The notes under the pieces were generated by a model, which saw only the letters and a list, made by a program, of their open reading frames with translations, was not told the origin of the DNA and searched no databases. Made by a program: the position numbers and the translations under genes. Positions 10,936 to 30,200 of a stretch of DNA of 37,294 nt are shown in pieces. Numbering within the stretch: the stretch's first letter is position 1; every line of letters begins with the position of its first letter. The stretch comes from Mucilaginibacter sp. (lineage in GTDB: Bacteria; Bacteroidota; Bacteroidia; Sphingobacteriales; Sphingobacteriaceae): the NCBI GenBank assembly GCA_028287975.1, contig JAQBOP010000092.1, forward strand, positions 1 through 37,294, in the 5' to 3' direction.

Positions 10936-12861
10936 TTATGCCTTATGTTTTATTACCAATTTTTTATTTTGGGCTTTTGATACGGCATCAAGATATTGTT
11001 GCAGCTGGGTGTATCTTGCTGCAGGGATAATGCGGTTTGTTATATTAAACTTTGCAGTACTTACAACTTGATTTTTCATTTCATCATAGGCATAATTGAC
11101 CTGATAGCTACCATAAGTGAATTTTAAGCTTTGATTTGCTGGTAATGTTTCCACAGTAAACCCTTCAGGAAGATCAATAGTAGTAACGCATGATTTTTGC
11201 AAAGGTGTAGTAAAATAAAAATCGGTTTTCCGGTCTGTTTCTACCGGTACATTAATATTGCACAGGTCAATCAAATGCGAACTGTAAAATTGCTTATTAC
11301 CCGCCATTATATCGCAAAATTGTTCATAATCTAAACTGATCCTTACCTGCTTGACGCTATCCTCATCTGCCGACAGGTTAAGATTAAAAATATTTGGCTG
11401 TTTAAAATTAAGCCATTTCATAAATTTTTCCTTTTGCTCGTCAAACTTCAAAGCTCCGGCATATACGTAGTCATCCCTGTAAACGCCGGTGCCAATAATT
11501 TTAATATCGGCATTTGCCCCGCCATCCGGTTTTAAGGTTAAATGCACCTCGCTACTAAACCGATTATCTTCAATATTGCTTGCAGGTGTATTAACCAGTT
11601 TTCCCCCATTTTCTGTAATCAATAAGGCGTTGCGGTTTTCTGTAAAGGCTCCCAGCTTGCCAAATGGCTGCGTGCTGCTTGTGCACTCTAACCATGTGGT
11701 ATCATTTTTAAACGGAATACATAAAATGGCATGATTAAATTCATTATAGGGAAATGAAAAATCAGCTGGTTTTTCATTGGTTCCGGCACGTATGATGGCG
11801 TAGTACGAATTAATGTTAACCGCTTTAAGTAACGCTTTCATGTAGTTGGAAAGCGCTTTGCAATCGCCATATTTCTTTTGGTCCACAAATGTGGCTGACA
11901 AAGGTTGATAGCCGCCAATACCCAATTGTATACCTACATAACGCATGCTTTTTTGCATATAGTTATATAAAAATTTAGCTTTTTCCTTATCTGTATTTAG
12001 GTCCTTTGTAAGGTTTTGTATAGCTGTCACCCTATTTGGCGGTAAATTTTCTTCAGGCGCATTAAGGGCTTCGATCCATTGGCCAAAACTTTTCCAGCTC
12101 GAAAAATCACCTGGATAGCCGAAACAATTAAAACTGTTTATGGCAAATGATATATTTGGAATAATAGTCCAAAGCAAAACATTGTCTTCTCTTTTTATTG
12201 CTTTCAGGTTTTTAACATCCCAAGTATAAACATCCTGGCCATCTTTATTTGTTTCTTTTTTAGGTTGTAAATTGGTGTGTTCGTTTTTATACCTGAAACC
12301 CATCAATGGGTTAACGGTTACCGAGTAATTTGCATTTTGTACAGATTGTTCAGGATAAGATTGAATTTGCCATTTGTCTAAACTTATAAAACTGTTTATC
12401 GTCTCTTCAAAGGATGTTTCAATTGTTATCGGGTAGCTGGCTATCGGATGCCTTAAAGCTAAAAATCGCTCATTGGTAACAATTGTTTCATCATCTGCCG
12501 CAGACCCGTCATACATATCACTTTTGTGATATTTTTTTATAACAGCGCCCGCTTCGTTATAAACCCGCATTTCAATACTGCTGTACTCATCATATTTTCT
12601 ATTATACCCCATTTCCATAATGGCCTCGCGATCTGCCTTTTCATTAAGTATGGTAACAATTTTATGCCGCTTAACAATTACCTTATCAGGGCCTTTAATC
12701 AATATTTTATTTTCGGAATAGCGGATAACAGAATTGGTATTATCTTTTAACGAGTCGGGTATGGTAGATGCCTTATAAAATTCGGTTGGTATTTCCTGGC
12801 CAAATGCAATCTTGCCACAACAGACCATTAACAGGCTTAGTAAAAATAGTTTACGATACAT
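10936..12861 (-). CDS. DUF3857 + transglutaminase-like domain protein (catalytic Cys/His retained)
   Basis: Signal peptide; YVGIQLGIGGYQPLSATFVDQKKYGDCKALSNYMKALL with Cys, FNHAILCIP with His. Confidence 0.85.
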   Translation of the reverse strand: MYRKLFLLSLLMVCCGKIAFGQEIPTEFYKASTIPDSLKDNTNSVIRYSENKILIKGPDKVIVKRHKIVTILNEKADREAIMEMGYNRKYDEYSSIEMRVYNEAGAVIKKYHKSDMYDGSAADDETIVTNERFLALRHPIASYPITIETSFEETINSFISLDKWQIQSYPEQSVQNANYSVTVNPLMGFRYKNEHTNLQPKKETNKDGQDVYTWDVKNLKAIKREDNVLLWTIIPNISFAINSFNCFGYPGDFSSWKSFGQWIEALNAPEENLPPNRVTAIQNLTKDLNTDKEKAKFLYNYMQKSMRYVGIQLGIGGYQPLSATFVDQKKYGDCKALSNYMKALLKAVNINSYYAIIRAGTNEKPADFSFPYNEFNHAILCIPFKNDTTWLECTSSTQPFGKLGAFTENRNALLITENGGKLVNTPASNIEDNRFSSEVHLTLKPDGGANADIKIIGTGVYRDDYVYAGALKFDEQKEKFMKWLNFKQPNIFNLNLSADEDSVKQVRISLDYEQFCDIMAGNKQFYSSHLIDLCNINVPVETDRKTDFYFTTPLQKSCVTTIDLPEGFTVETLPANQSLKFTYGSYQVNYAYDEMKNQVVSTAKFNITNRIIPAARYTQLQQYLDAVSKAQNKKLVIKHKA

Positions 12862-12866
12862 AAAAA

Positions 12867-14780
12867 TTAAGATTTTTTTAATACGATCTGTTCGTTAAGC
12901 ATCTCATACATCTTTTTATAAAACTCATGAAAATCCGGGTAATTTTCGTAAAAGAAAAGCGCGGCTTTACGGCTTATCACATATCTGACTACTACAGCAC
13001 CATCTTGTTCGCCCATAAAGCGTTTAAAAGTAATAGTTTTGTCAGGCATAGAAAGGCTAATGTTTTTCGGTAAAGCATCTATCTTATATCCGTCAGGTAT
13101 TTTATAATTACCTGTAATTTGATAGTCATCCAAAAAGCCAAAAGATATATCAGTGGTACGGGTTTCGTTTAAAAAAGGGTTTTTGTGTAGCGAAGTAAAT
13201 ATGTTTGGATTAATATAGATATAATTGCCGTCTGATCCCGCAAGGTCAAAATTAAAATTGATCTTCTGAACCAACGGCTGATCTTCTTTGTCCATATTGT
13301 CTAAAATGAGCGATGATATTTGCAGATTGTTATCGTCGTCCCGCAAATAATCAATGTATTTTTTTTCGCCGTCAGTTTTATATTTGCTTATGGCATTTAG
13401 ACGGTGATAGCTAAAGCTGCTTAATTGTGCTGTACCATTCATTTTTCCGTCAGGTTTAATTTCGGCGTTAACATATACAACTTGTCTTACAGGCTGTTTA
13501 TTAGCGATAAAAAACAAGCTGGACCTTTCATCATCACGGTCGACATATAAACCATAAGAATCTAAAAGATCCTCAGGAATGGTATTGCAGTCTGCAAATT
13601 TATCTGTGGCATCTAATATGTAATACTTTGCACTATCAACCGGTATGTATGTTACTGTTTTGTTGAATTGATATTCGCTGGTATAGGCCGGGTTAACCTT
13701 TCCATGATTTCGCGTGCTCACTAGCATAGGGTATGCTTTAATCCCTGCTTTAGTGAGTAAATGATATACCATTAAATTGATCTCTGTTGAATTGCCTGTT
13801 TTTTTATCCCAGGCAAGTGAGGTGCCGTCATTGGTGTAACGCACATTTATATCATTCCACCTCATACTGTTTTTTACCTCATCAAAAATAACTGCAATCT
13901 TTTCCTCGTCAGTTTTTAAATTTTTTACCTTGGTCAAAATAACATCTTCGCCTGCTAGTTTCCTTTTAAATTGTTCTCCAAAATCCTCGTATTTCACTTC
14001 GTTTTTGCCAAGATCAGGCCAGGTGGAAGAAAAATTTAAAAACAGACCATCGACGCCTGATAGCTGATAAAACATTCTTTCGGCGTTATCTTTTAATGAA
14101 CTCATATATGGCTCAACACGTAACGAAGGAATATTGATCATAGCTTTAGTGGCCTCATTGTTAATTACCAGGGGTAATTTTGTCATTTGCAATGTCCTAT
14201 AATGCAATAGGTTAGGCATATCTGCACTAAACTGGCTATACCGGGTAGGTATTTCTGTTTGAAAATACCAGTCTGGAAAATTGCCGAGGTTTTTTGATGA
14301 TAAGATGTACTTATATTCTACTACAGAACCCGGCTGTACATTTGGGAAAGCAAACACCACTTCAGAACTTATCTTATCTATTCTTTTTCTGTAAATAAGG
14401 CTTCTGTCTATTTTTGTAATTTCGATGTTGCCATTGTTAAGATTAATGGTTTCAGCCTGTACATTATTTATATTTTCAAGGAGATTGATGTCAAAATATG
14501 GAATGTGAATATTAGCAACGCCTTTACCTTTATCATTAAATATCTTAATGCGGACATGTCGTTCAAAACTTAAATTATATGAAGCGTCCATAGATACGTC
14601 GCCTTTATCAAAAAGGACCTCGGCATTTGCATCTTTTTCAAAATCGCAGCTTTTCATTTCAAGATCTTCTTTATTAATCTTGCCATAGGCTTGTGTAGTG
14701 GGGTAATTGGCTTTTGGGGGTTGTGCCCTTAAAAAAATCGGGCATAAAAAAAGTAGTACTACACTAAATAGTTTAATCAT
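12867..14780 (-). CDS. DUF3857 + transglutaminase-like domain protein (catalytic residues apparently lost)
   Basis: Signal peptide; paralog of the adjacent gene; the GDC and FNHA positions read GNS and FNKT. Confidence 0.82.
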   Translation of the reverse strand: MIKLFSVVLLFLCPIFLRAQPPKANYPTTQAYGKINKEDLEMKSCDFEKDANAEVLFDKGDVSMDASYNLSFERHVRIKIFNDKGKGVANIHIPYFDINLLENINNVQAETINLNNGNIEITKIDRSLIYRKRIDKISSEVVFAFPNVQPGSVVEYKYILSSKNLGNFPDWYFQTEIPTRYSQFSADMPNLLHYRTLQMTKLPLVINNEATKAMINIPSLRVEPYMSSLKDNAERMFYQLSGVDGLFLNFSSTWPDLGKNEVKYEDFGEQFKRKLAGEDVILTKVKNLKTDEEKIAVIFDEVKNSMRWNDINVRYTNDGTSLAWDKKTGNSTEINLMVYHLLTKAGIKAYPMLVSTRNHGKVNPAYTSEYQFNKTVTYIPVDSAKYYILDATDKFADCNTIPEDLLDSYGLYVDRDDERSSLFFIANKQPVRQVVYVNAEIKPDGKMNGTAQLSSFSYHRLNAISKYKTDGEKKYIDYLRDDDNNLQISSLILDNMDKEDQPLVQKINFNFDLAGSDGNYIYINPNIFTSLHKNPFLNETRTTDISFGFLDDYQITGNYKIPDGYKIDALPKNISLSMPDKTITFKRFMGEQDGAVVVRYVISRKAALFFYENYPDFHEFYKKMYEMLNEQIVLKKS

Positions 14781-14931: not shown

Positions 14932-16311
14932 ATGGCCAATCTTAAGCAAATCAAACACTTAACATCGCGTGCAGGCTTCGGCATGTGTTTCGATGAATTT
15001 AAGGCTGCCGAAAGCACTCCGGTTAAACAAGCTGTAAAAGATCTTTTTAAAGCATCGGCAGATTATGAGCCCCTTGCCATTGTAAATAACAATGCAGATT
15101 ACAGCATGGTTGTAAAAGGCGACAAATCCACTCGCAAAATGTTTATGCAGGAGCAGCGCCGGGAAGAAAAGGAACTGAACCTGGGTTGGATAAAGCAGAT
15201 GAGCACAACCGAAGCCCAGTTGCGCGAAAAGATGGCTTTGTTTTGGAACAATCATTTTGCCTGTCGCGCTAAACAGGGCGCTTACGCTCAACAGCTTGCA
15301 AATATCCAGCGCAGCAACGCCTTAGGGAATTTTAAAAATATGACGCTGGAGATCGGCAAGTCGCCGGCGATGCTGCAATTTTTAAATAACCAGCAAAATT
15401 TAAAAGGACATCCTAATGAGAACTTCGCCCGTGAACTGATGGAGCTTTTCACCATTGGCCGAGGCAACTATACCGAGCAGGATGTTAAAGAATCGGCACG
15501 GGCATTTACCGGCTGGGGATTTGACCGCAACGGCGAATTTAAATTTCGTCCTTTTGTGCATGATAACGGGCAGAAAACTTTCCTGGGCAAAACGGGTGAT
15601 TTTAAGGGTGAAGATATTATTGATATCCTGTTTGAGAAAAAAGAAACAGCCCATTTCGTCAGCAATAAATTGTACAAATACCTGGTAAATGAAACACCTG
15701 ATCCGGCGCATGTCAGCGCTATGGCGGATGTGTTCTACAATGCCAGCTACGAGATAAAACCTTTACTGGAGCATGTTTTTACCGCTGATTGGTTTTATGA
15801 GGATAAGAACATAGGCAACCTGGTAAAATCGCCAGTCGAATTGATTGTGGGGCTGAACAGGCAATTTAACATTAACTACCAGCGACCCGAAGTGCTGTTG
15901 CAATTTCAAAAAGTATTAGGGCAGGTATTGTTTTATCCGCCAAATGTTGCAGGCTGGCCCGGTGGCCGCAGCTGGATTGACAGCTCGTCATTAATGTATC
16001 GCATAAAAATACCATCGACGGTATTAAATGGCGGAGTTATTGATTTTACAGGCAAGGCCGATCCGGAAGATGAAGCATTTTTAGCAACCATGCATACGCA
16101 GCAGGAAAATGTAAATATGCGCGTACAGGCTCAACCCGACTGGAACAAGTTTTTAGGCGTCATACCAAAGGGTATGACTAAAACAAGCATAGCGCAGTTC
16201 ATGTTAGAACCTAAGTTGAGCAACGCGTTAATGAGCAGTATTAATCAATCAACAGATACAAAGGCGATGGTTATTGAATTGGTGTCTTCGCCGGAGTATC
16301 AGTTGGCTTAG
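14932..16311 (+). CDS. DUF1800 family protein (copy 1)
   Basis: LREKMALFWNNHFACRAKQ, HPNENFARELMELFTIGRGNYTEQDVKESARAFTGW, FYPPNVAGWPGGRSWIDSSSLMYR. Confidence 0.92.
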   Translation: MANLKQIKHLTSRAGFGMCFDEFKAAESTPVKQAVKDLFKASADYEPLAIVNNNADYSMVVKGDKSTRKMFMQEQRREEKELNLGWIKQMSTTEAQLREKMALFWNNHFACRAKQGAYAQQLANIQRSNALGNFKNMTLEIGKSPAMLQFLNNQQNLKGHPNENFARELMELFTIGRGNYTEQDVKESARAFTGWGFDRNGEFKFRPFVHDNGQKTFLGKTGDFKGEDIIDILFEKKETAHFVSNKLYKYLVNETPDPAHVSAMADVFYNASYEIKPLLEHVFTADWFYEDKNIGNLVKSPVELIVGLNRQFNINYQRPEVLLQFQKVLGQVLFYPPNVAGWPGGRSWIDSSSLMYRIKIPSTVLNGGVIDFTGKADPEDEAFLATMHTQQENVNMRVQAQPDWNKFLGVIPKGMTKTSIAQFMLEPKLSNALMSSINQSTDTKAMVIELVSSPEYQLA

Positions 16312-16403: not shown

Positions 16404-17792
16404 ATGAATAATTCGAAACAGATAAAGCATTTATACGCAAGGGCCGGGTTCGGGATTCGGTTTGAGGATCTGCATGACCGTGAGAATTGGTCGATCAAAA
16501 AAAGCGTGCGAAAGCTTTTTAAAGCTTCTGAGAAAATTGAACCACTAAAAGCAGTTTCCGAAAATATAGATCTGAGGCCGCGCGATTATAAGACGATGAC
16601 TGACGATGAAAAAAGGCAGTTAAATCAAGATCGGAACAAGCAGGAAAAGGCCTTGAACGACGCCTGGGTAAAACAACTAAGTAATACCGATGCCCAACTG
16701 CGCGAAAAGATGACCCTGTTTTGGCATAATCATTTCGCATGCAATATTGGCAATTCATACTATCAGCAGGAACTGAATAATATTGAACGGACCCATGCAC
16801 TGGGTAATTTTAAAACCCTGTTGCTACAGGTCTCGCAAACACCTGCTATGCTGCAGTTTTTAAATAACCAGCAAAATCAGAAAGGGCATCCTAACGAAAA
16901 CTTTGCCCGTGAGCTGATGGAGCTTTTTACGCTGGGCCGCGGCCATTACACCGAGCAGGATATTAAAGAGTCGGCACGGGCATTTACCGGCTGGGCCTAT
17001 AATGGCAAAGACGGTACTTACAGCTTCAACCCACGTGCACATGACGACGGAATAAAAACATTTTTAAACAATACGGCTAATTTTTGCGGCGAGGATATCC
17101 TGAATATCATTACTGAAAACAAGCAAACGGCGGTGTTTATCTGCACCAAGCTCTACCGTTATTTTGTTAATGAAGTGCCTGATGAGATCCATGTAACACA
17201 AATGGCCGATGTTTTCTACAAAGAAAACTATGAGATAGCGCCACTATTAAAATTTGTGTTTTTGTCTGATTGGTTTTATGATGAAAAAAACATTGGCAAC
17301 CTGGTCAAGTCGCCGGTTGAGTTTTTGGCAGGGTTGAACCGGCAGTTTTATATCAACTATCAAAACCCTGACGTGCTGATGCAGTTTCAGCGGACACTGG
17401 GGCAAGTATTATTCAGGCCACCTAATGTTGCAGGCTGGCCGGGTGGCCGATCATGGATAGATAGTTCTTCGCTGATGTACCGGATGAAAATACCATCTAC
17501 CATATTAAATGCCGGACTGATAGATTTTACAGGAAAGGCAACGCCCGAGGATGAAGCTTACCTGGCATCGCAACGCAAACAACAGTTAAATGTAATAAAG
17601 CGGGTGCAGGCACAACCCGATTGGGATAAGTTTTTAAAAGACATCCCGAAGGATACAACGCATGAAGAAATTGCCCGGTTTATGCTTGAACCGGATCTGA
17701 ATAAAACAGTAATTGACGAAATAAACAGGCCGGGTGATATTAAATCGGTAGTGATACAGATCGTATCAACGCCGGAGTATCAGTTATGCTGA
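16404..17792 (+). CDS. DUF1800 family protein (copy 2)
   Basis: Extended similarity to copy 1: HPNENFARELMELFTLGRGHYTEQDIKESARAFTGW, RPPNVAGWPGGRSWIDSSSLMYRMKIPST. Confidence 0.92.
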   Translation: MNNSKQIKHLYARAGFGIRFEDLHDRENWSIKKSVRKLFKASEKIEPLKAVSENIDLRPRDYKTMTDDEKRQLNQDRNKQEKALNDAWVKQLSNTDAQLREKMTLFWHNHFACNIGNSYYQQELNNIERTHALGNFKTLLLQVSQTPAMLQFLNNQQNQKGHPNENFARELMELFTLGRGHYTEQDIKESARAFTGWAYNGKDGTYSFNPRAHDDGIKTFLNNTANFCGEDILNIITENKQTAVFICTKLYRYFVNEVPDEIHVTQMADVFYKENYEIAPLLKFVFLSDWFYDEKNIGNLVKSPVEFLAGLNRQFYINYQNPDVLMQFQRTLGQVLFRPPNVAGWPGGRSWIDSSSLMYRMKIPSTILNAGLIDFTGKATPEDEAYLASQRKQQLNVIKRVQAQPDWDKFLKDIPKDTTHEEIARFMLEPDLNKTVIDEINRPGDIKSVVIQIVSTPEYQLC

Positions 17793-17913: not shown

Positions 17914-19119
17914 ATGGAACGCAGAGATTTTTTAAAAAACACCGCATTAATATCAGGCGCATTTATGGTGCCTGCGTTTTTGAAACCGCTGGAAGCTATT
18001 GCAAAAGGCGATCTGACCGGGCATAAAAACCTGGTTATCATCCAGCTTTCGGGCGGTAATGATGGGTTAAATACCGTGATACCTTACGGTAACGACATTT
18101 ATTATCAAAAGCGTAAAACCATAGCTATCAATAAGCCGGATGTTATTACACTTAACGATATGCAGGGACTAAATCCCAACCTGTCGGCGTTAAAAGAAAT
18201 TTACGACCAGGGATGGATGAGTATAGTTAACTCGGTAGGTTACCCAAATCCGGACAGGTCGCATTTCCGGTCGATGGATATCTGGCAGACAGGCAGCGAT
18301 TCAAACCAGTTTTTAAGCACCGGCTGGATTGGGCGTTACCTGGATTCAAATTGCCAAACGTGTAAGAATCCATACACTGCTATCGAAGTTGATGATACGC
18401 TATCATTGGCCATGAAAGGCACCAAGATGAAAGGCATTGCTGTGCAAGACCCTAACAAACTATTTCAAACTACCCGTGAGCCCTTCTTTAAAGACCTGGT
18501 ACATGACCACGGTGATGCTAATTTGAACGAGGATAACCTGGGTTACCTTTATAAAACCATGATCGAAACTTATTCATCGGCAGATTATATTCAGAAAACG
18601 TCAAAAACCTATAACGTTACCGCGCAGTATCCCAATACCGCTTTAGGTAACCAGCTTAAAAATGTGTCTAAATTTATTAATTCGGGTTTGGATACGAGGG
18701 TGTATTATGTTTCGCTAAGCGGATTTGATACACACGTTGGCCAACAGAACCAGCAGGGGCGTCAGCTAAAAATTTATGGCGATGCCGTTGCCGCCTTTGT
18801 TAAGGACCTGAAAGGGACAGGCAAGCTGGACGATACACTGGTAATGACCTTCTCTGAATTTGGTCGCCGTGTTGAACAAAATGCCAGCAACGGTACCGAC
18901 CACGGCACGGCCAACAACGTATTTATGTTTGGCGGGAAACTGAAGAAACAAGGCATATTTAATGACGCACCCGACCTGACTACGCTGGATAACGGCGATT
19001 TAAAATACCAGGTAGATTTCAGGGATATTTACGCCACCTTGCTTGATAAATGGCTTGACGTAAGCAACAGCCAGGTGTTAAGTAAGAATTTTGCGGGGTT
19101 GGATTTGATTACTGTATAA
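17914..19119 (+). CDS. DUF1501 family protein with Tat-like signal
   Basis: MERRDFLKNTALISGAFMVPAFL (RRDFLK); LVIIQLSGGNDGLNTVIPYG, TFSEFGRRVEQNASNGTDHGTANNVFMFG. Confidence 0.92.
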   Translation: MERRDFLKNTALISGAFMVPAFLKPLEAIAKGDLTGHKNLVIIQLSGGNDGLNTVIPYGNDIYYQKRKTIAINKPDVITLNDMQGLNPNLSALKEIYDQGWMSIVNSVGYPNPDRSHFRSMDIWQTGSDSNQFLSTGWIGRYLDSNCQTCKNPYTAIEVDDTLSLAMKGTKMKGIAVQDPNKLFQTTREPFFKDLVHDHGDANLNEDNLGYLYKTMIETYSSADYIQKTSKTYNVTAQYPNTALGNQLKNVSKFINSGLDTRVYYVSLSGFDTHVGQQNQQGRQLKIYGDAVAAFVKDLKGTGKLDDTLVMTFSEFGRRVEQNASNGTDHGTANNVFMFGGKLKKQGIFNDAPDLTTLDNGDLKYQVDFRDIYATLLDKWLDVSNSQVLSKNFAGLDLITV

Positions 19120-26719: not shown

Positions 26720-27826
26720 TTACATTTTAAAGATTTCGTCAAGATCAACATAATAACGCCCCGACTGCTGGTGTTCTCCTAATAATATTTTGCGTGCAAT
26801 ATCCGTAGTAATAGCGCCACCAAGCACTACTGACGACGCTAATTGCGGCCATGTATTGATTGTTTTACCTATTTCGGCCATTGATAGTTTCATCCTTTCT
26901 GATAATGAATCAAAGGAAAGGATGGACATCAGTATGCCACGGCGGTTTTCGTCTGTTACTGTTATGCCATTGTTTTCTATAAACGCGTCAAGGTAACCAT
27001 GCATTATACCTCTGTCTTTTTCAAGATCAAACCGTTCCACGTCCAGCATACCGCGGTCATTGGTATCCATTACCACTGGTATTTGCAACTCTTTGGCTTT
27101 AAAACGGCTGTCTAATTTAATGTCGATACCATCACAAACTTCAATAAACAGGTCAAGGTTACCGTCACCTGTAAAAAACTCGTCCATGTTTTGCTGGTGC
27201 AAGCCATCGCTAAATATTTTTACTTTAATAAACGGATCTATTTCAACTATCTCTCTGGCAGCAATCACTGTTTTATTTAAACCCAGGTTGTGTGATCCGG
27301 TGCGGATCCGGTTTAAGTTGCTTAGTTCGGCGGTATCAAAATCTGCCAGGCGCAGCTCGCCGCAAATGCGTTCCATAGCCATAGTTAAGGCAATAGATTG
27401 CCCTACAGATAAGCCAACAATACCAATTGTTTTACTTTTTAATAATAGCTGCTCTTTCCTGGTTATTTTGTTATGGTTACGATTGGTGCGCACCTCGACA
27501 AATTCATCCTCGTCGAGCAAGTGTACCAAACGTTTGGCCCACGGGTAATAAACCCATACGCCATATTCATTTATGTCCTTACCGGCAAGGTGATTGGTTA
27601 TCAGTTCAGGATATTCTTCGTCTTTAATTTTTACGGATGGGCGCTCGCTTTTAACAAGTTCCTGTAGTTGTCCGTATATTTCATCCTGGACAAATATTAC
27701 ATCGCCGTTTTGTATTAACTTATCGATGGTTTGTTTATCCGACGGATTATTCATTCGCAAAATAATTGGCACATAAGCTTGATTTAACTGCGTTGAGCTT
27801 TCCAATAAACTTGCAATATTCCTCAT
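26720..27826 (-). CDS. ThiF/E1-like (Rv1355c-like) adenylation-domain protein
   Basis: TIGIVGLSVGQSIALTMAMERICGELRLADFDTAELSNLNRIRTG, EIVEIDPFIKVKIFSDGL, PVVMDTNDRGMLDVERFDLE: E1 Rossmann and ATP-binding motifs preceded by an ~135-aa N-terminal extension. Confidence 0.82.
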   Translation of the reverse strand: MRNIASLLESSTQLNQAYVPIILRMNNPSDKQTIDKLIQNGDVIFVQDEIYGQLQELVKSERPSVKIKDEEYPELITNHLAGKDINEYGVWVYYPWAKRLVHLLDEDEFVEVRTNRNHNKITRKEQLLLKSKTIGIVGLSVGQSIALTMAMERICGELRLADFDTAELSNLNRIRTGSHNLGLNKTVIAAREIVEIDPFIKVKIFSDGLHQQNMDEFFTGDGNLDLFIEVCDGIDIKLDSRFKAKELQIPVVMDTNDRGMLDVERFDLEKDRGIMHGYLDAFIENNGITVTDENRRGILMSILSFDSLSERMKLSMAEIGKTINTWPQLASSVVLGGAITTDIARKILLGEHQQSGRYYVDLDEIFKM

Positions 27827-27894: not shown

Positions 27895-28704
27895 TTAAAG
27901 AAAATCCCACTCTTTGTTCCGGATATTGGGGTTTTGCATATTTCTTTCAGCGTTCGTGATGGTTGCCTGCAAATCCCACTTATCAAGGTTGGGTATCTGG
28001 GTTTCGTAATGTATGGTTATTTTCTTCCCTCGTAATTCTTCAACGCGTACAGTGTTTAAATTATTTCGGATCTTCATGATGGCAACCTTGTCTTCCTCAT
28101 GCGCTTTACTTAATGGCGGCACATCCCTAAGCAGCATGGTTGTAGCGATAAGGTCAAGTTTGGGATAATAAAATGTACCATCGTTACCTATACTGGCTTC
28201 GAGTTGCATGCCTACAGCCTCTACCGGCTTTACCGTATAAGGAGCGCATAGCGCAAAAAGCGATTGTAAACCTATCTGATGAGAAATAGCCACCGCTGCG
28301 CGGATCAAAAAAATACTACCTACGCCGTAGCCGGCAATTTCCCGCGAGTTCCATAAGCCACATAGCTCGCCTGTGCCATGTTGTGCATATTTCCATACCA
28401 GCTCAAATACTGATCTATCCATAGCGTAAGTTGCTGTTTCAAGCGGCAGCAATTCTGTACCGCCGGATACATGAACACGCGCCCCGCCAAAAACTCGCTT
28501 TCCGTCTAACGATTCTACAACAATTACAAACGCTGCAGGATTATTAACCCACTCGTTTTTGCTGTAGGATACTTTAGTAACCCCAATATTTGTTAGTACG
28601 TGCGTATGGCCTTCAATAAAAAGCGCACAGGTTTGGGGCTCATCAATTGCTCTGAACGCCCTAAGTCTTACTTCCGGGTTTTCTTTATTTATAAGGCCAT
28701 CCAT
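27895..28704 (-). CDS. GNAT-type acyltransferase, resembling autoinducer/N-acyl amino acid synthases (LuxI/FeeM-like)
   Basis: FGGARVHVSGGTELLPLE, TGELCGLWNSREIAGYGVGSIFLIRAAVAISHQIGLQSLFALCAPYTVKPVEAVGMQLE fit a GNAT core with a LuxI/FeeM-like arrangement. Family assignment by eye. Confidence 0.55.
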   Translation of the reverse strand: MDGLINKENPEVRLRAFRAIDEPQTCALFIEGHTHVLTNIGVTKVSYSKNEWVNNPAAFVIVVESLDGKRVFGGARVHVSGGTELLPLETATYAMDRSVFELVWKYAQHGTGELCGLWNSREIAGYGVGSIFLIRAAVAISHQIGLQSLFALCAPYTVKPVEAVGMQLEASIGNDGTFYYPKLDLIATTMLLRDVPPLSKAHEEDKVAIMKIRNNLNTVRVEELRGKKITIHYETQIPNLDKWDLQATITNAERNMQNPNIRNKEWDFL

Positions 28705-29105: not shown

Positions 29106-30200
29106 ATGAAAAAATGTTACCTGATTTACCTTCCTGCATTGTTTTTCATATTCTTTGCAGCCTCCTGTAAAAAAGATCCTAAAGTCAGCCCGACGGTTTC
29201 ACAACCGGTTAATTATGCAAAACTGGGATTATATGAACAGGCTACCGGAAACAACAGGCGCATATTTATAGCGGCCTCTAAACTGGGCGATATAACTACG
29301 GTAAATTACGGGTTGGTTTTTGATACCGGTTCTACCGGCCTCACCATTGACGCTAACGGCATTATCCCGGCATCTATGATCACATCAACTGGGTTCCAGA
29401 TAACCGGCGACTCTGTTAATGTTAACGGCATCACTATAACGTCGCAAACCGCTACCATAACTTATGGCGGAGTTGACGGCTCTATAAAAGAATATGGTAA
29501 CCTGGCATACGCAACGGTAACTATCGGCGATGGCAACGGCAGTATCACCACACCACGGATCCCTATATTTTTATATTATAAAGTAGTTAATGTAACTACA
29601 GGTAAGCAGCTTGCGGCACATTCGGCTGATATTTTTGGAGTGGGGCCGGGTGTTAGCGCAACCATAAGATCTATTGCAAGTCCGTTAAGCTATTTTAAAC
29701 TTCCGGATAACATTACTAACGGATTTAGGTTAGCTATGCTAAACACAGCAAATTTTAGCGCAACCGCTACGTATACCGCGGGCTTATTGTATATCGGGTT
29801 AGCACAGGACGATTTGAGCGGGTCTAATTTTATTATGCATCCACTTACATACAATGCTATAGTTGGCTATTTGCCAACCATAGCGTCAACTATAACTTAT
29901 AATGGGCAAAGTGTACCCGGCACCATATTGTTTGATACCGGCACTCCCGCTACTATTATTATTGAAAACAGTGCAGCTACTACCAATTCTGCAGCGCTAC
30001 CGGACAATACGGTGGTGTCTATTACTACGGAGCAAGGATTTAACTATCAGTATACTACCAGCAGCAACTTTAATTTAACCGAGGTCCAGAACCCGTCGTA
30101 CTCAAATGACCGGAGGACAATTTTCAGCATCGACTTTTTCCTGAGTAATGAATATCTGCTTGATTATACCAATCACCGCATCGGCCTGAAAAATAATTAA
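29106..30200 (+). CDS. Secreted lipoprotein with pepsin-like (A1-type) aspartic protease motifs
   Basis: Lipobox FFAASC; LVFDTGSTGLTI (D73), TITYGGVDGS (Y120, flap-like), ILFDTGTPATII (D277), C-terminal SIDFFLSNEYLLDYTNHRIGLKNN resembling the pepsin-family terminal strand. Confidence 0.7.
   Translation: MKKCYLIYLPALFFIFFAASCKKDPKVSPTVSQPVNYAKLGLYEQATGNNRRIFIAASKLGDITTVNYGLVFDTGSTGLTIDANGIIPASMITSTGFQITGDSVNVNGITITSQTATITYGGVDGSIKEYGNLAYATVTIGDGNGSITTPRIPIFLYYKVVNVTTGKQLAAHSADIFGVGPGVSATIRSIASPLSYFKLPDNITNGFRLAMLNTANFSATATYTAGLLYIGLAQDDLSGSNFIMHPLTYNAIVGYLPTIASTITYNGQSVPGTILFDTGTPATIIIENSAATTNSAALPDNTVVSITTEQGFNYQYTTSSNFNLTEVQNPSYSNDRRTIFSIDFFLSNEYLLDYTNHRIGLKNN

Follow-up and report, generated by a model that had tools for sequence, protein, structure and literature searches.

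A predicted pepsin-fold lipoprotein family in Mucilaginibacter

Introduction

To our knowledge, bilobal pepsins were long thought to be eukaryotic, and the few bacterial ones described are either cytoplasmic or mycobacterial. The mycobacterial PecA (PE_PGRS35) has been proven to act as a surface protease; it cleaves both itself and PE_PGRS proteins, dependent on its first Asp (PMC6819658). PecA and PE_PGRS16 (PDB 4ehc) are exported to the cell surface and have a two-lobed pepsin fold that contains a DTG/DSG pair. Among Proteobacteria, shewasins A and D and further pepsin homologues (MEROPS A1) are likewise bilobal with two DTG/DSG motifs, and lack a prosegment (PMC2761423, PMC4814920). Rlo proteins of Pseudomonas and APRc of Rickettsia are further bacterial aspartic proteases of clan AA, some of them exported or linked to the surface (PMC12239564, PMC4140852).

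A bilobal pepsin-type fold with a DTG/DSG pair, the absence of a prosegment, and export are also predicted for the product of a gene in the genome of a soil bacterium of the genus Mucilaginibacter. We analyzed this gene within a 37,294-nucleotide stretch of DNA, the window. The protein is probably an exported, lipid-anchored aspartic endopeptidase with a pepsin fold (clan AA, bilobal). None of the papers searched describes a pepsin-like protein from Mucilaginibacter or a pepsin-like lipoprotein from Bacteroidetes.

Results

The gene and its product

The open reading frame lies on the + strand at positions 29106-30200 of the window, with its ATG at 29106 and a stop codon ending at 30200, and encodes 364 amino acids. 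Relatives of the gene occur in other genomes, and with a dN/dS of about 0.06-0.09 against three close relatives it is under purifying selection. It is a solitary gene, with a gap of 401 bases to a divergent gene (start at 28704, - strand) and of 179 bases to the following gene on the + strand (30380). Scans for a promoter and a terminator gave scores no better than those of shuffled sequences.

The protein begins with a predicted lipoprotein signal peptide (29106-29168) that ends in the lipobox AAS-C, with Cys21 at 29166-29168. Residues 22-36 (29169-29213) form a short linker from the lipid anchor to the domain, as judged from low AlphaFold2 pLDDT and from secondary structure, and the first β strand of the model begins at residue 38. 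The distance from Cys21 to this strand is too short to leave room for a pepsin-type prosegment, so a zymogen of the pepsin kind is not expected. As the only Cys residues are at positions 4 and 21, the mature domain would have no disulfides.

Three other groups of genes in the window were recorded. A ThiF-family ORF of 368 amino acids (26720-27826, - strand) has orthologues of 768-770 amino acids at loci L032, L034, and L038. Their extra C-terminal half is nitroreductase-like by eye and is absent in the window ORF, L031, and L033; a histidine kinase gene starts about 45 bases downstream. Two adjacent paralogous ORFs of about 460 amino acids (14932-16311 and 16404-17792, + strand), DUF1800-like by eye, are followed by a DUF1501-like ORF (17914-19119). 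Two adjacent large transglutaminase-like ORFs, DUF3857-like by eye, are found at 10936-12861 and 12867-14780 (- strand).

Predicted fold

AlphaFold2 predicts a fold of the bilobal pepsin type with both lobes in one chain, whether run with 70 family sequences (pLDDT 92.0, pTM 0.87) or on the mature domain with 74 sequences (pLDDT 95.7, pTM 0.92). In the two models the N-terminal lobe covers approximately residues 37-200 (29214-29705) and the C-terminal lobe about residues 205-364 (29718-30197). The protein ends in FFLSNEYLLDYTNHRIGLKNN, and its modelled C-terminal helix and strands, IDFFLSNEYLLDYTNHRIGLKNN (30129-30197), with F345 and G360 conserved, are the counterpart of the C-terminal segment of pepsin.

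Foldseek searches of the PDB with the two models gave 540 and 539 matches at E<=0.001, with best E-values of 2.2e-11 and 5.6e-12. The best 50 of the approximately 540 matches were in both searches all pepsin-type aspartic proteases aligned over both lobes, in agreement with the bilobal pepsin-like protease fold claimed in an earlier note on this DNA. These 50 are eukaryotic enzymes and one bacterial structure, 4ehc, the C-terminal domain of M. tuberculosis Rv0977/PE_PGRS16, which has the top target-normalised TM-score among the matches listed (0.70, rmsd 4.7, 18% identity). TM-scores to eukaryotic pepsins are moderate (about 0.5-0.64, rmsd 6-8 Å), indicating a match in fold and topology with shifted lobe packing or loops. 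Since a TM-score of 0.70 to 4ehc, a two-lobed target of 280 residues, should need both lobes superposed together, the two candidate catalytic residues, D73 and D277, would be apposed in the cleft.

The protein could instead be a pair of retropepsin-like (A2-type) domains fused in a single chain, with no particular kinship to pepsin. The sole echoes in Pfam are of this kind, with PF13650 and PF13975 matching the C-terminal lobe below threshold (14.4 bits against a cut-off of 24.3), and the clan AA model TIGR02281 matched once at E 0.21. The best 50 fold matches, bilobal and aligned over both lobes, make such a fusion very improbable. Viral retropepsins match the fold weakly, over about 100-160 columns, and the sequence around the flap can be aligned with that of pepsin. 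The viral fold library searched gave weak matches only, one of them to a Pandoravirus protein (E 8e-6, TMq 0.48).

Sequence kinship with pepsin

Neither the window protein alone nor a profile of 29 members nor a distant member found anything relevant in sequence searches of the PDB, and no Pfam or NCBIfam model reached its cut-off for the window protein. PF00026, which scores human pepsin at 435.8 bits, did not match the window protein at E<=10 or any of 29 members at E<=1, so that by sequence the protein is not a formal member of family A1. The PecA model NF038019 had no match in the window genome. Four weak NF038019 matches elsewhere in Bacteroidota were rejected as chance, with no DTG protein nearby. 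Judged by these thresholds, the family is neither A1 (PF00026) nor PecA (NF038019). Being invisible to the standard family models, it is left unnamed by annotation pipelines. PF00026 found nothing in 396 Bacteroidota genomes, but control genomes also gave no signal, so absence is not established by this search.

A profile of 70 members aligned with human pepsin (sequence checked against PDB entry 1psn) at E 0.0016, with the first DTG on the first DTG, the flap TYG on TYG, and the second DTG-T on DTG-T in register. A broader 36-member profile reached E 1.5e-4, over the first lobe only; for this profile the best control values were 0.021 among 30 shuffled pepsins and 0.047 among 19 unrelated window proteins. 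The profile of the N-terminal lobe also matched that of the C-terminal lobe in the region of the DTG motifs (E 2e-4), as an ancient duplication would lead one to expect.

Conservation of the predicted active site

The first catalytic motif, D73-T-G-S (29322-29333, D73 codon 29322-29324), and the second, D277-T-G-T (29934-29945, D277 codon 29934-29936), read FDTGS and FDTGT in the ORF, and the two Asp residues are 204 residues apart. Between them lie the modelled flap β-hairpin, residues 109-136 (29430-29513; strands 109-122 and 125-136), and the first psi-loop motif, D-I-F-G, residues 175-178 (29628-29639), at the start of DIFGVGPG (175-182). The flap includes TITYGG with Y120 (29463-29465) and aligns with the TYGTGS flap of pepsin. 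A second psi-loop motif, I-F-S, residues 339-341, is encoded at 30120-30128. The ORF coordinates and the motifs given in the earlier note (FDTGS at D73, FDTGT at D277, TITYGG, and DIFGVGPG) are exact.

We counted conservation over 106 distinct family members. Both D73 and D277 are found in 105 of them, while T74, S76, and G178 are invariant (106/106) and G75, G121, and G279 are each conserved in 105. At the flap position 90 members, the window protein included, have the Tyr expected of A1, 15 have Phe, and one has His. Residue 280, after the second DTG, is Thr in 88 and Asn in 12. At the last position of the second psi-loop Ser predominates (82), with Gly in 19 and Ala in 4, a relaxed form of the hydrophobic-hydrophobic-Gly pattern. 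The family therefore carries the two DTG/DSG motifs, each with a psi-loop, that mark clan AA, the second psi-loop being relaxed. At L082:3974-5074 (+) the second motif is FDTST instead of FDTGT, with the Asp retained and the Gly replaced.

The single member without either Asp is a second copy at L163:2866-3981 (+) in genome G177, next to an intact copy. Its motifs are LSTISAG and FSTGYT, and with Ser at both positions it should be non-catalytic, a natural pseudo-enzyme. Joint loss of the two residues is what is expected if both Asp work as one dyad.

Non-enzymes with a pepsin fold are known (PMC2761423), and the Ser/Ser paralogue belongs to this very family. The window protein might thus bind peptides or glycans without cutting them, comparable to the pregnancy-associated glycoproteins and the plant xylanase inhibitors (TAXi). 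We regard this as improbable, given that known binders of the pepsin fold have lost the dyad whereas here it is retained almost throughout, together with the invariant T74, S76, and G178.

Distribution of the family

A homologue is encoded in 25 of the 36 congeners examined. A 26th listed match, L026, is false, consisting of a lipoprotein N-terminus only; L140, a non-member, was drawn in solely by the same feature, and the remaining weak N-terminal matches appear to be of this kind too. A scan of genome contigs found 80 loci, all from Mucilaginibacter, Sphingobacteriaceae, or Bacteroidetes MAGs, and a wider profile added homologues in two further genera of Sphingobacteriaceae, g26 and g37. In 396 genomes sampled across the phylum, no homologue was found in any other bacterial family. 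As far as searched, the protein family thus appears restricted to Mucilaginibacter and two neighbouring genera.

Some genomes have two or three copies. In the tree, a fully supported split sets the g37 type and L025 apart from the other members, but long branches come together there. Lipoproteins make up most of the family; the g37 members and L139/L164 carry instead an ordinary signal peptide without a Cys. L156-L161, all from g37, combine DTGS and DTG/DSG motifs with an ordinary signal peptide lacking a lipobox, and are a deeply branching sister group to the lipoproteins. A tblastn search of plasmids with a distant member found none. No conserved gene neighbour pointed to a substrate; only orthologous blocks within small clades were seen.

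Predicted export and anchoring

The Cys of the lipobox is present in 98 of the 106 members and Lys at +3 in 103, so the lipobox proposed earlier is real and conserved. After the lipobox the window protein starts C-K-K-D, with a single acidic residue following C-K-K. The start C-[KST]-K-(D/E) is found in 83% of the lipoprotein members examined and in 30% of other lipoproteins from the same loci, a background that itself contains a few family members. SusD proteins are a class generally taken as surface-exposed. A C-K-K start is present in 25 of the 30 SusD proteins of the same genome, compared to about one third of other lipoproteins in related loci, where C-K-K lipoproteins include many of unassigned membrane side. 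Read from these N-termini, anchoring in the outer membrane is likely and an outward orientation plausible.

The protease could also be anchored in the outer membrane facing the periplasm, where the same chemistry would process or degrade envelope proteins. Capnocytophaga lipoproteins carry a K-(D/E)2 export signal behind the Cys, with an optimum of C-X-K-(D/E)2-X, and K-D alone was insufficient for surface export (PMC5080379). The start of the window protein differs from this optimum, and several relatives, as noted above, have an ordinary signal peptide without a Cys. Most members, however, begin C-K-K-(D/E), similar to the C-K-K of SusD proteins in the same genome, and we consider a periplasmic orientation unlikely, though a serious alternative.

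Discussion

Proposed mechanism

In pepsin-type enzymes one Asp serves as the general base that activates a water molecule, the other Asp serves as acid, and the flap closes over the substrate. For the Mucilaginibacter protein we propose Sec export via the signal peptide, lipidation of Cys21, and transport to the outer membrane, where it would most likely face outward. Two lobes of similar fold would each supply one Asp at the bottom of the cleft, and D73 and D277 would activate a water for attack on the peptide bond of a substrate held under the flap, with Y120 at its tip. The protein very likely works like a pepsin and would be a new form among bacterial pepsins.

With no room for an inhibitory prosegment and no disulfides, the enzyme should be made in active form and be restrained by pH or by limited access to its substrate. 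A mildly acidic pH optimum is our favoured guess, as the second motif ends in Thr like that of the acid-acting pepsins and not in Ala as in the shewasins. Such an optimum would fit the acidic peat and tundra soils in which the genus lives; acid soils and Sphagnum peat are among the Mucilaginibacter habitats given in PMC12074574 and in the 2007 description to which it refers. Candidate roles are to shed or trim proteins of the cell envelope or to digest soil protein.

We tentatively suggest, at slightly less than an even chance, that the family is a separate lineage of bacterial pepsin-type proteins, distinct in sequence from A1, the shewasins, and PecA, acting outside the cell as surface-anchored sheddases or digestive enzymes in acid-soil Bacteroidota and including both catalytic and pseudo-enzyme paralogues. 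If true, it would offer an independent case for studying the origin of bilobal pepsins. Natural variation in the flap (Tyr or Phe), in the residue behind the second DTG (Thr or Asn), and in anchoring (lipoprotein or soluble form), together with one double Asp-to-Ser change, offers a test set for the pH dependence of pepsins and the origin of the two lobes. A lipid-anchored Bacteroidota family without prosegment or disulfides extends the known occurrence of the pepsin design as well as its possible modes of control.

Comparison with known systems

The protein had been compared to the shewasins, but the best bacterial comparison is the PE_PGRS16/PecA domain. Shewasins have no signal peptide and reside mainly in the cytoplasm (PMC2761423, PMC4814920), whereas the Mucilaginibacter protein has a lipoprotein signal. 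They have Ala after the second DTG (PMC4814920), compared to Thr (or Asn) in this family, and are detectable by ordinary A1 similarity, which the Mucilaginibacter family is not. The Rlo proteins and APRc are of the retropepsin type, unlike the two pepsin-like lobes predicted here in one chain.

The modelled protein shares its fold and the order of its C-terminal strands with pepsin, chymosin, plasmepsin II, and rhizopuspepsin of eukaryotes, and has their catalytic motifs, flap, and psi-loops as well. It differs from the eukaryotic pepsins in having only 12-17% identity to them in fold alignments and in lacking a prosegment, disulfides, and a Trp shortly after DTGS. PecA and PE_PGRS16 belong to another phylum and use type VII secretion with a PE domain instead of a lipoprotein anchor, and the Asp residues of PecA are 177 residues apart (293 to 470, PMC6819658) versus 204 in the Mucilaginibacter protein. 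The family suggests that an enzyme design found mostly in eukaryotes occurs in bacteria too, in the form of an exported lipoprotein.
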